NCBI GenBank assembly: GCA_019359415.1 | Contig: JAHHHH010000058.1 | Location: forward strand, 1 to 47,948 | Origin: Iphinoe sp. HA4291-MV1 | GTDB lineage: Bacteria; Cyanobacteriota; Cyanobacteriia; Cyanobacteriales; Nostocaceae | Reading direction: 5' to 3' | DNA: 47,948 nucleotides | Part shown: positions 28,813 to 34,465 of the stretch, in pieces | Layout: the number at the start of each line of letters is the position of its first letter | How positions within the stretch are numbered: the stretch's first letter is position 1 | Program-made: the position numbers and the translations under genes | Notes under the pieces: model-generated | What the model saw: the letters and a program-made list of their open reading frames with translations, nothing else | Told to the model about the DNA's origin: nothing | Database searches by the model: none

Positions 28813-31170
28813 ATGACTTCAAGCAAGCAACCTTTTGAGTTGCCGAGTTTTTATGTGCCTTGGCCCGCACGGCTGAACCCAAACCTGGAAGCGGCACGGG
28901 TGCATTCTAAAGCTTGGGCTTATGAAATGGGGATTTTGGGTGGGGCAGAGGGATCAGAAGATTATGGGATTTGGGATGAGCGCAAGTTTGATGCCCATGA
29001 CTACGCGTTATTGTGTTCCTATACCCATCCAGATGCCGATGAACCCATGCTCAATCTGGTAACTGACTGGTATGTTTGGGTATTTTTCTTTGACGATCAC
29101 TTCCTTGAGCTTTACAAGCGTAGCCAAGATATGGCTGGGGCTAAGAAGTACCTCAATGGACTGCCAGCGTTTATGCCTGTGCAGCCCCAAAAAACGCCGC
29201 CAGAACCCACCAATGCCGTAGAACGGGGTTTAGTAGACCTCTGGAATCGCACTGTTCCTAATGCCTCCCAAGACTGGGTAATCCGGTTTTCTGAGAGTAC
29301 TATCAATCTTCTCAAAGAATCTCTGTGGGAACTGGCTAATATCAGCCAAAATCGAGTCGCTAACCCCATTGAGTATATCGAGATGCGCCGTAAGGTAGGG
29401 GGTGCGCCCTGGTCGGCTAATTTGGTAGAACACGCGGTTGGGGCAGAAATTCCTGCTGCGATCGCTCCCACTCGACCAATGCGTGTCCTCAAAGACACCT
29501 TTTCTGATGGGGTGCATCTACGAAATGACATCTTCTCTTACCAAAGAGAAGTGGAAGAAGAAGGGGAAAATGCTAACTGTATTTTGGTCTTAGAACGATT
29601 CCTCGGTGTGAGTACCCAAGAAGCGGCTAATCGAACTAACGACTTACTAACATCTCGGGTACAACAGTTCGAGAACACCTGTGTTACTGAGCTTCCTTCC
29701 TTGCTCGAGGAATACAGTCTGAGTCCCGACGAGCGTCTAAAAGTAGTCCTATATGCCAAAGGACTTCAGGACTGGCAGTCGGGGGGTCATGAGTGGCACA
29801 TGAGATCGAGCCGCTACATGAACCAGACATCAGACAAATCTTCAACAGCAAGCTGGTTTTTAGGGGGCCCCACTGGACTTGGCACATCGGCGGCTCGTCT
29901 AGGAACTTTATACGATAGTTTGGGACTGAAACGCTTCAAAAGCTTCACCCATGTCCCCTATCAGCCTGTAGGACCAGTAACCCTGCCACAGTTTTATATG
30001 CCCTTCTCCACCAGTTTGAATCCCCATCTAGACGAAGCTCGGCGGCATTCTAAAGAATGGGCGCGTCAAATGGGGATGCTGGACGTATTGCCAGGGATGC
30101 CAGGTATTTACATCTGGGATGACCACAAATTCGATGTGGCCGACGTAGCTTTATGCGGTGCTTATATTCATCCCAATGGATCTAGTCCTGAGTTGAATAT
30201 CACAGCTTGTTGGCTCGTTTGGGGAACCTATGCTGATGACTACTTTCCGGCATTGTATGGTCATAGCCGAAATATGGCAGGAGCAAAAGTCTTTAACGCT
30301 CGGTTATCGGCCTTTATGCCCCTTGATGGAGATCCCATTCCCGAAGCAACGAACCCAGTCGAACGGGGTTTAGCTGATATTTGGGCGCGGACGGCTGGCC
30401 CCATGACCCCTAATGCTCGTCGCCAGTTTCGTCAGGCGATCGAGGATATGACGGAAAGTTGGTTATGGGAACTGGCTAACCAGATCCAAAATCGCATTCC
30501 CGACCCCATAGACTATGTGGAAATGCGCCGTAAGACCTTTGGCTCTGATCTAACCATGAGCCTGTCTCGACTTTCCCAAGGGGATGAAATCCCACCAGAA
30601 ATCTTCCGCACCCGAACCATGCAGGGAATTGAGAATTCAGCCGCCGACTTCGCCTGTTTGACGAACGATATTTTCTCTTACCAGAAAGAAATCGAATTTG
30701 AGGGCGAGATTAATAACGGTGTGCTGGCGGTTCAGAATTTCCTTAACTGCAATATCCCCCAGGCTGTCGCAATTGTTAACGACCTGATGACCTCTCGTGC
30801 GCTTCAGTTTGAACATATCGTTGCGACTGAACTCCCTATTTTGTGTGATGATTTCGACCTGAATAGCAGTGCTCGTGAGAAACTGTACGGTTACGTCAAG
30901 AAACTGGAACAGTGGATGTGCGGTGTACTCAAGTGGCATAGGGAGGTAGACCGCTATAAGGAATTTGAATTGCGGAATAACTCGACAGAAAAGCGGTTAC
31001 TCCAAGGTCCCACAGGATTAGGCACTGCCGCGACCCAGATTAGACCAAGTGCCGGTCAGGAAACAACTCAAACCAATGTTCAGCCAGTGGTGCAAAACTT
31101 ACTGAGTAGTCCGACAGGGTTAGGGACTTCAGCTACCAAAATCTGGTCGCTGTTAGGAACGAAAGGTTAG
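28813..31170 (+). CDS. geoA: Geosmin synthase (bifunctional germacradienol/geosmin synthase)
   Basis: GeoA turns farnesyl diphosphate into the earthy odorant geosmin in two Mg2+-dependent steps: the N-terminal cyclase makes germacradienol, the C-terminal one finishes geosmin. The 785-residue protein has both. Domain 1 (about 10-345) has D94-D95-H-F-L-E99 and the NSE triad N238, S242, E246. Domain 2 (about 395-725) has D475-D476-Y-F and N618, S622, E626. All metal ligands are present, so both halves should work. Three copies of P-T-G-L-G-T lie outside the cyclase folds: at 353-358 in the linker and at 733-738 and 767-772 in the tail. Two encapsulin-type genes follow on the same strand, the first after 68 bp, which suggests the enzyme is shell cargo. 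Confidence 0.96.
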
Positions 31171-31238
31171 CTCAATCTGAGTCCCGATTCCGGTCAGTTA
31201 AATAACTTGTCAACAAACATTACCAATGGAGATTAATC

Positions 31239-32648: not shown

Positions 32649-33055
32649 GTAGTCGGACATTTTCTTTAAAGTAGGGGCGAACGGCTGTCATACGTGTCAA
32701 CTTAAGCTGAAACCCTTGTCATTACGTTACATCATGCCTTATTCTACTCGTTCACAATTGTCGCGCTTACCTCACCCCGGTTTTGTCTTGCGCCAAAACC
32801 GCCCCTCTCCTTACTAAGGAGAGGGGACGTGAAGCGTAGCTTTACGGTGAATCCAGCGCTGCAGGAGGGTTTCCCTCTCCTAAGGGAGACGCACTCGCGT
32901 TCCGTAGGCGACTGGTGAACCCGAAGGGGGGTGAGATCAAATCAACGACGTGGTATAAGGATTTGAACGTTAAGTTGACACCAATGAACGGCTGTTTGCC
33001 CCTACCGCCGATACTTTCTTAGGAATGTAAATTTAGTACATGAAAAGTTAAAATT
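32649..33055. mobile_element. Nested repeat elements between the two shell genes
   Basis: An outer inverted repeat (GTAGGGGCGAACGGCTGT at 32671-32688, mirrored at 32988-33005 with three mismatches) is split by a 288-bp inner element whose ends are GTGTCAACTTAA (32694-32705) and TTAAGTTGACAC (32970-32981). The inner element contains CCGGTTTTGTCTTGCGCCAA, a core shared with the MITEs at 34918 and 45600. There is no gene. The insertion lengthens the distance between the shell genes. Confidence 0.65.
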
Positions 33056-34465
33056 ATGACAGATGCTTTGATTGCGTCGAATTTGGGGCTTGAAAACGGG
33101 CAACCCCAGATTAGCTTAAGCACGAAAGGGGCGCGAAATTTAGCCAAAACTACAAAAACTCCGCCCCAGATGCAGGGGATTACCCCCAGGTGGTTGTTAC
33201 AGATGTTGCCTTGGGTGCAAGTCACGGGTGGGGCCTATCGGGTTAACCGTCGCTTGACTTATGATGTTGGCAATGGACGGGTCAGCTTTACCAATACAGG
33301 AACCGAGGTGCGGGTTCTTCCCCAAGCACTTTGTGAACTACCTTTACTGCGTGGATTTGAGGATATTGAGGTACTCAACGCCTTGGCAGACCGCTTTGTG
33401 CAACAAGAATTTGCCTCGGGTGAGGTCATTGTACAGGAAGGTCAACCAGCCGACCAGGTGTTATTAATTGCCCATGGTAAAGTTAACAAGCTTAAGGCAG
33501 GAAAGTATGAGGCGGAAGCTTTACGGGATATCTTAGCTGACGGCGATTGTTTTGGTGGCGAAGCTATAGTTCTGTCTCAGGATACTTGGGATGTTAGCCT
33601 CAGAGCGATTACGCACTGCATAGTTTTGTCTTTGCCAGTACAGGCGTTTCGGGAGTTGATCAACCAGTCTGAAGCGTTGCAGACTCAGGTTGATCGCTTT
33701 AGAGCTATATTGAGCAAACCCCAGGATAGGCATAATCAGGCAGAGATCGCCATGGCTGCAGGTCATAGTCAGGAAAGTGAGTTACCCAGGACATTTGTTG
33801 ATTACGACTTGAATCCACGGGAGTATGAGTTAAGCGTCGCTCAAACCATTTTACAGGTGAATACGCGAGTTGCTGACCTCTACAACGAACCCATGAACCA
33901 GACGGAGCAACAATTACGGCTGACTATCGAAGCGTTACGGGAACGGCAAGAATACGAAATGCTTAATAATCCTGATTTTGGGTTGTTGCACAATGCTGAT
34001 CTCAAGCAACGCATCTTTACCCGCACTGGGCCACCAACTCCAGATGATTTTGATGAATTGCTCTCTCGGCGGCGCAAATCCCATTTTTTCCTAGCTCACC
34101 CTCGCGCGATCGCTGCTTTTGGTCGGGAGTGTAACCGTCGTGGAATCTATTCTCCAAGCAGGGAGGTTAACGGAAAGATTGTACCTGCATGGCGCAACTA
34201 TCCGATTTTTCCTTGTAACAAAATTCCTATCACCAAGGAGGGTACTACCTCTATTTTGGTACTCCGTGTCGGAGAAGAAAACCAAGGGGTGGTCGGTCTA
34301 CACAAAACGGCTATCCCTGATGAATACCAACCCAGTTTGTCTGTGCGGTTTTTGGGTATCAATGACAAGGCGATTATTTCCTACTTAGTAAGTGCTTACT
34401 ACTCCACAGCCGTACTCATTCCCGATGCACTCGGCATTCTTGAAAATGTGGAAATTGGACTCTAA
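33056..34465 (+). CDS. Family 2B encapsulin-type shell protein with cNMP-binding-like domain (copy 2)
   Basis: A 469-residue paralogue of the gene before it, very similar in the shell-forming parts and more different in the inserted domain (about residues 97-220; cassette [19 protein letters not shown] again lacks the usual Arg). Relative to copy 1 it has one residue fewer near 336-343, where [15 protein letters not shown] replaces [16 protein letters not shown], and other small indels bring the total length back to 469. The two copies could co-assemble into one mixed shell or form separate ones. Whether it is co-transcribed with geoA across the 407-bp repeat-filled gap is not clear. The name rests on family knowledge; no search was run. 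Confidence 0.85.

Follow-up and report, generated by a model that had tools for sequence, protein, structure and literature searches.

The window analyzed here is a stretch of 47,948 nucleotides from the cyanobacterium Iphinoe sp. HA4291-MV1 (assembly GCA_019359415.1, contig JAHHHH010000058.1, forward strand), and its element of interest is a three-gene locus in which geoA, encoding a geosmin synthase, is followed by two genes for encapsulin-type shell proteins, enc1 and enc2. Geosmin is a leading earthy off-odor of soil and drinking water, and most work on GeoA has treated it as a free enzyme. The original prediction, made from the DNA letters alone, placed the three genes on one strand and proposed that the shell proteins co-assemble around GeoA. 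The layout was confirmed: all three genes are complete, uninterrupted and in the same orientation, with intergenic gaps of 68 bp and 407 bp (Table 1). The host genome comprises 7.36 Mb, with the locus in contig 72, and Enc1 and Enc2 are its only PF19307 matches (E ≤ 0.001).

Both paralogues of 469 aa had been assigned to Family 2B encapsulins, and a profile search bore this out. NF041163 (encap_f2b; cut-off, 400 bits) was passed by Enc1 with 764.8 bits and by Enc2 with 762.9 bits, with coverage of residues 19-468 and 20-468, respectively. The two proteins are 70% identical and match the SrpI-like encapsulin shell family PF19307 with 443.8 and 444.7 bits. A PF00027 domain at residues 116-203 (Enc1) or 117-204 (Enc2) is followed by PF19307 from residue 216 or 220. 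In the Protein Data Bank (PDB), Enc1 was most similar to 9BJE (652 bits versus 640.8 for 9BIX) and Enc2 to 9BIX (631.2 bits versus 592.9 for 9BJE); these entries are Sl-Enc1 (9BJE) and Sl-Enc2 (9BIX) of Streptomyces lydicus (PMC12407261). The PF19307 domain and the matches of 593-652 bits to shell proteins solved by cryo-electron microscopy (cryo-EM) point to an HK97 fold in both proteins.

Table 1. Features of the geoA-enc1-enc2 locus (positions in the window)
Feature	Coordinates	Strand	Remarks
geoA	28813..31170	+	bifunctional germacradienol/geosmin synthase, 785 aa; putative cargo
motif copy 1, PTGLGTSAA	29869..29895	+	linker between cyclase domains, aa 353
motif copy 2	31009..31035	+	C-terminal tail, aa 733
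motif copy 3, PTGLGTSAT	31111..31137	+	extreme C terminus, aa 767
enc1	31239..32648	+	469-aa shell protein of Family 2B; Enc1 type with VWKEP in the loop
Enc1 stretch tested as inserted cyclic-nucleotide-binding-like domain	31551..31886	+	PF00027, 57.6 bits, aa 116-203; Trp at aa 177
enc2	33056..34465	+	469-aa shell protein of Family 2B; Enc2 type with RRRKS in that loop
terminator-like hairpin 3' of enc2	34566..34586	+	weak; pattern scan alone

GeoA passed NF041168 (f2_encap_cargo3), the NCBI model for Family 2 encapsulin cargo terpene cyclases, with 1246.8 bits at a cut-off of 1200. It contains two stretches of the PF19086 terpene cyclase domain, and its N-terminal half is similar to the germacradienol/geosmin synthase domain of known structure (5DW7/5DZ2). 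The metal motifs are intact (D94DHFLE, N238DIFSYQRE, D475DYFP and N618DIFSYQKE), and D475, D476 and P479 are invariant in the GeoA alignment. In addition, GeoA carries three PTGLGT motifs (Table 1), of which the third is shared by the close relatives L015, L016, L017, L018, L045 and L051 (L and G numbers denote compared loci and genomes).

The motifs were compared in 82 GeoA proteins, that of the window and 81 from 80 loci (L032 gives two); GeoA of L004-L014 was excluded, partly because the same genomes are repeated, and some of the compared flanks end at contig ends. Conservation was 95% for G355, 99% for G357 and 90% for A360 in the linker and 96% for G735, 99% for G737 and 91% for A740 in the tail, while most columns immediately flanking the motifs were less than 60% conserved. 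The core motif was present at one site at least in all 53 shell-linked proteins and in all 29 without a shell gene in the flanks examined, and at both sites in 45/53 and 27/29, respectively. The strict motif was rarer in the linker of unlinked GeoA (6/29 versus 46/53), and in the tail it was found in 24/29 unlinked and 35/53 linked proteins. Unlinked GeoA thus retains the motif core (29/29), and its linker copy has drifted (strict form in 6/29). We also scanned 20 genomes with a strict DNA pattern for PTG[LF]GT[ST]AA. Five of the six matches lay inside geoA, the sixth (G557) lay outside any open frame of at least 120 aa, and the reversed control gave one match. The linker and C-terminal regions that carry the motif are called unannotated and disordered in PMC8346489.

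Genome-wide, we asked whether geoA occurs in any genome without a Family 2B shell gene, using samples of cyanobacteria, actinomycetes, Myxococcota and Streptomyces. Among 386 cyanobacterial genomes, geoA was found in 12, each with two adjacent full 2B shells in the identical three-gene order; the 374 geoA-free genomes contained a full 2B shell in three cases and a domain-less match alone in seven. Of 296 actinomycetes, 66 had geoA, and all 66 had a shell match: it was full-length in 62, in pieces in G596 and G714 (in the latter on two contigs), confined to a contig-end fragment in G523 and devoid of the inserted domain in G444. The 230 geoA-free actinomycetes yielded a full shell in seven genomes and a domain-less match in ten. 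In the 136 Myxococcota, geoA and 2B shells were detected in the same 44 genomes, seven others had the domain-less type only, and none of the 92 geoA-free genomes had a full 2B shell. When the three samples were pooled, a shell match accompanied geoA in 122/122 genomes, and a full 2B shell was present in 10/696 geoA-free genomes; with the inclusion of domain-less matches, most of which have the size of Family 2A, the geoA-free figures become 10/374, 17/230 and 7/92. Fisher P values of 2e-20 (cyanobacteria), 4e-56 (actinomycetes, G444 taken as a miss) and 9e-37 (Myxococcota) assume independent genomes, and the sampled genomes are related and hence not independent. Among 150 Streptomyces genomes, 146 had both genes, one geoA only (G947), one a shell only (G944) and two neither (P = 0.0008). 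This near-perfect genome-level tie between geoA and 2B shells, which includes unlinked cases, is new here. For the window locus itself, chance is excluded by the profile scores and by the recurrence of the three-gene order in the 12 cyanobacterial genomes with geoA.

Family 2B shells of geoA-free genomes had other neighbors. Among the seven such actinomycetes, five shells lay beside cargo of the 2-methylisoborneol synthase (2-MIBS) type (NF041167), the one in G554 lay beside a cysteine desulfurase, and in G665 the contig ends directly after the shell. The 2B shells of the geoA-free cyanobacteria G229 and G262 also adjoin cysteine desulfurases. The motif was found near the N terminus of three of the five 2-MIBS-type cargos (L132, L134 and L138) and in neither L133 nor L135. 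In G039, the third geoA-free cyanobacterium with a full 2B shell, a 596-aa chimeric cyclase with an open frame is encoded directly upstream of Enc1 and Enc2 (L125:9314-11104, minus strand). Its first ~108 residues are GeoA-like, the cyclase domain after them is of another kind, and three GLGTSA motifs stand at the C terminus; either the cargo was swapped in nature with retention of the tag, or the chimera is an artifact of assembly.

By coordinates, 32 of the 66 actinomycete geoA genes have a shell gene on their contig at a distance of no more than 10 kb, and the other 34 have none that close. Each genome behind the 29 loci without a shell gene in the flank does contain a shell match, located farther along or in another part of the genome, in G403 a fragment only; one of these loci, L036, is a second geoA copy, and the strain's other copy (L037) has two shells. 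We then read 19 genomes (L139-L157), selected because just one shell match reached E ≤ 1e-60 and geoA was far from it or on a different contig. According to blastp, the shell gene adjoins a polyprenyl transferase frame in 19/19, and all 11 transferases scanned passed NF041169, the model of the encapsulin polyprenyl-transferase cargo. A looser motif search of the open frames of at least 100 aa in L139-L157 found no motif-bearing shell neighbor except one unrelated-looking match in L152. In G944, which has no geoA match, the shell is also beside a polyprenyl transferase (L158), so the presence of geoA is no precondition of this pairing. A contig-end cluster of G523 (L130:4081-9139, minus strand) contains geoA, a polyprenyl transferase gene and the shell fragment, linking both cargo types, and 165 systems with both cargo types were counted in PMC8346489.

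Since 34/66 geoA genes are unlinked, unlinked GeoA keeps the motif core, the shell in such genomes lies beside a polyprenyl transferase and the strict pattern falls mostly inside geoA, these data suggest that unlinked GeoA is loaded in trans into a shell encoded elsewhere. GeoA may thus rely on a shell even where the genes lie far apart. A broader proposal is that GeoA is an obligate client of 2B shells across bacteria, and that in Streptomyces and their kin, where geoA stands alone, it is loaded in trans into the shell encoded beside a polyprenyl transferase or 2-MIB synthase, perhaps sharing the compartment with a prenyl diphosphate synthase; we hold this tentatively, at a little under even odds. 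If GeoA works in a shell everywhere, the conserved motif pair outside the catalytic domains would be explained, and the solo geoA of Streptomyces would gain a partner.

We propose that geoA, enc1 and enc2 encode a geosmin nanocompartment, and we give the whole model, with a mixed shell, motif-based loading and confinement, a probability of roughly 78%. It is favored by the identity of the shell proteins, the cargo model passed by GeoA, motif conservation, co-occurrence, the motifs retained in G039 and the pairing of one Enc1 with one Enc2 described below. Judging from the S. lydicus pair, Enc2 (RRR type) would be a self-sufficient shell former with which Enc1 (VWK type) would co-assemble into mixed T=1 shells. 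GeoA would be carried inside through its short GLGTSAA motifs in the interdomain linker and the C-terminal tail. Farnesyl diphosphate would enter via pores, the N-terminal domain would make germacradienol, and confinement would hold this intermediate close to the C-terminal domains responsible for its conversion to geosmin. Retention of germacradienol is a speculative yet plausible part of the model, and it is favored by the finding that GeoA expressed in Escherichia coli yielded germacradienol and germacrenes instead of geosmin (PMC7251104).

Several observations weigh against this model. According to PMC6428758, 2-MIB synthesis does not require EshA, a related Streptomyces shell; this weakens the idea of germacradienol confinement and implies that the product may be formed without a shell. 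Eight of the 53 shell-linked GeoA proteins have the motif at one site only, the strict DNA pattern misses 15 of 20 geoA genes, and in Streptomyces G947 a piece of geoA at the edge of a contig is unaccompanied by any shell match. A literature search, mostly without subscription papers, found no particle, copurification or loading experiment on a geosmin system, and neither a purified geosmin-loaded shell nor loading of unlinked GeoA was reported in what it covered. Furthermore, because the motifs persist in GeoA encoded far from shells (at both sites in 27/29), they could serve catalysis, cyclase folding or domain docking instead of targeting, the link to shells being inherited company in large developing bacteria and not functional. 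Consistent with this explanation, geoA was reported to be conserved throughout Streptomyces and linked to sporulation, and WhiH directly regulates geoA and BldM directly regulates eshA-mibA-mibB (PMC8549240), so that the two are not necessarily coregulated. The kinship of the sampled genomes and the lack of the motif in two of the five 2-MIBS-type cargos also speak for it. However, the motif is not tied to one place in the enzyme, as it is near the N terminus in L132, L134 and L138 and C-terminal in G039. Moreover, geoA and 2B shells share the same 44/136 Myxococcota and 12 of the 15 2B-bearing cyanobacteria, a coincidence that extends across phyla. We consider this alternative as a whole unlikely.

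The nanocompartment model assumes that both shell proteins build one shell, and the two types could be traced in other genomes. A loop reads VWK-[ED]-P in the Enc1 type and RRR in the Enc2 type, and it is probably the diagnostic A-domain motif of PMC12407261. With it we classed 120 full-length shells from L015-L094, L125-L127, L129-L158 and the window (L001-L014 and L095-L124 were unused). All 41 loci with two aligned shells contain one Enc1-type and one Enc2-type gene, with Enc1 first in 40; in the exception, L079, an Enc2-type gene is paired with a distant shell more than 5 kb away. Of the 38 loci with a single aligned shell, 32 are Enc2-like and six Enc1-like. Of the latter, L126, L127 and L136 lie beside cysteine desulfurases, L049 and L056 have an incomplete second shell, and L027 lies at a contig end. 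Therefore, among the aligned loci, Enc1 is never the only shell of a complete terpenoid locus, in keeping with the finding that Sl-Enc2 alone forms shells of ~28 nm and Sl-Enc1 alone does not (PMC12407261). The rule of one each, with Enc1 never alone in a complete terpenoid locus seen, offers a testable division of labor for two-component shells.

The window pair has the arrangement of such shells, an Sl-Enc1-like gene followed at 407 bp by an Sl-Enc2-like gene. This gap would allow the two genes to differ in expression, and PMC8346489 left open that each protein makes a separate homomeric compartment. However, the two S. lydicus proteins were mixed at every interface examined (PMC12407261), and complete terpenoid loci with Enc1 only are missing from the alignment; we regard two separate shells as quite unlikely. 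The co-assembly claimed in the original prediction is thus backed by analogy with the S. lydicus pair.

As to the history of the two genes, which may reflect one ancient Enc1/Enc2 split or repeated duplication, a quick tree of the shell part grouped 22 Enc1 and 22 Enc2 sequences together with a support of 95, all cyanobacterial except one Methylococcaceae row. An approximately unbiased (AU) test did not reject a single Enc1 clade (P = 0.58), and the constrained tree with the Enc1 sequences together scored better. Recent gene conversion between enc1 and enc2 was not seen in the window pair, where 71 of 148 comparable fourfold sites are identical. In L025 (12394-15421), the two genes are identical at 97/97 fourfold sites over five 40-codon blocks and at 41/68 over the last four, and in L035 (12382-15500) at 39/39 over the first two blocks. 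Gene conversion is likely in both loci, and the loop still differs between the genes there (VWKEP or VGREP versus RRRKS).

The inserted domain raises the question of cyclic-nucleotide regulation. The canonical phosphate-binding cassette of cAMP/cGMP domains is characterized by an Arg and a Glu residue. When the Enc1 domain was aligned to cyclic-nucleotide-binding domains, Trp (aa 177) was found near the place of the Arg and Asp at that of the Glu, and Enc2 has Gly at the latter place. Despite the family match, both proteins thus lack the cassette pair. The Trp is present in 116/120 shells (exceptions: L126, L127, L136 and L079_10521) and the Glu in 14/120. Three of the four Trp-less shells adjoin cysteine desulfurases, and the Trp is a possible marker of cargo class. 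In G444, an RRR-type shell without the domain is encoded beside a divergent geoA (L129:6468-7562, minus strand); in a stretch without Ns it scored 422 bits with the 2B model and 296 bits with the 2A model (cut-off, 380), and this lineage appears to do without the inserted domain.

Could the shell nevertheless exist for regulation by cyclic nucleotides through its displayed domains? PF00027 is present in both shells, and such a role was proposed in PMC8346489. However, the cassette Arg and Glu are mostly missing and the geoA-linked 2B-type shell of G444 lacks the domain altogether, and for these reasons an ordinary cAMP switch is unlikely; conventional binding of cAMP by the inserted domains is improbable, and we rate regulation as the purpose of the shell as decidedly improbable. 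The reading of both proteins as CRP/FNR-like transcription regulators of geoA, which draws on the PF00027 domain, the Crp/Fnr-type wording of PMC7251104 and the names given to the 9BIX and 9BJE molecules in the PDB, was rejected as hardly credible, since the CRP/FNR-family matches span the nucleotide-binding domain with its flank, the Pfam and NCBIfam matches include no helix-turn-helix family (in agreement with the predicted absence of such a motif), and the remainder is an encapsulin shell domain of ~444 bits with 593-652-bit matches to cryo-EM shell proteins.

The surroundings of the locus were also inspected. A pattern scan of positions 28200-35200 found 12 terminator-like sites (expected, 7.2; standard deviation, 2.8), and a promoter scan of the same region was uninformative (8 sites; expected, 9.6). 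The flanks at 26548-28287 and 35141-35770 encode a DUF3352 protein and a chorismate lyase, and among 80 loci, some with short flanks, such flanks recur in two Brasilonema loci only. In Nostoc desertorum (L016), GeoA is 95% identical to that of the window, yet the neighbors differ across 10 kb on either side; because of this, the geoA-enc1-enc2 operon seems to have been relocated (L016, L017 and L045 compared). Microcoleus sp. CAWBG506 has two tandem geoA-like genes upstream of Enc1/Enc2 (L032:7705-12274), with 55% and 73% identity to the window GeoA. A geoA-like gene with 55% identity is borne by the Streptomyces clavuligerus plasmids NZ_CP065243, NZ_CP065257 and NZ_CP065260. Finally, CAKLQH020000001 and CAKLQF020000001, by name Acinetobacter phage MD-2021a, contain at ~279,184-279,877 a gene resembling the shell part only (56% identity over 49% of Enc1), which is possibly host DNA.

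Compared with known systems, the locus has close counterparts. PMC7251104 described a conserved geosmin cluster, geoA-cnb-cnb, in Microcoleus asticus and in other Cyanobacteria and Deltaproteobacteria. It comprises the same three genes in the same order, with a GeoA of 758 aa and Cnb proteins of 471 and 469 aa; the latter were read there as Crp/Fnr-type regulators, whereas here the two proteins of the window are assigned to Enc1/Enc2-type shells, and the present GeoA adds a third motif. Geosmin-synthase cargo in double-shell 2B operons was described in PMC8346489, where the motif, which geosmin-synthase-like cargo bears in its linker and again at its C terminus, was proposed as a possible targeting sequence. 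This group shares with the window the two-domain cyclase, the motif at both places and two shell genes with the cyclic-nucleotide-binding domain; it does not differ in kind, except that three motif copies stand here against two there. The original interpretation is partly supported; it is sound but largely published already. Its view that the system is little explored holds for geosmin-loaded shells, of which we found no report, and not for the operon, the cargo motif and two-component shells, which are all in print.

A terpene cyclase beside a 2B shell is also found in the Streptomyces 2-MIB synthase/EshA system (PMC8549240 and PMC6428758) and in the 2-MIBS-type loci, three of which share the motif. 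The five 2-MIBS-type loci differ in having one shell gene and a single-domain cyclase, with the motif, where present, near the N terminus. Two-component shells were described in 503 operons from five phyla, those of Cyanobacteria being primarily terpene-cyclase operons (PMC12407261). The S. lydicus pair resembles Enc1 and Enc2 of the window in its pairing, in the conserved sequence difference in the A domain and in the HK97-fold shell with an inserted domain. It belongs to a putative xylulose-kinase operon and was studied without cargo, whereas the pair in the window adjoins a geosmin synthase.

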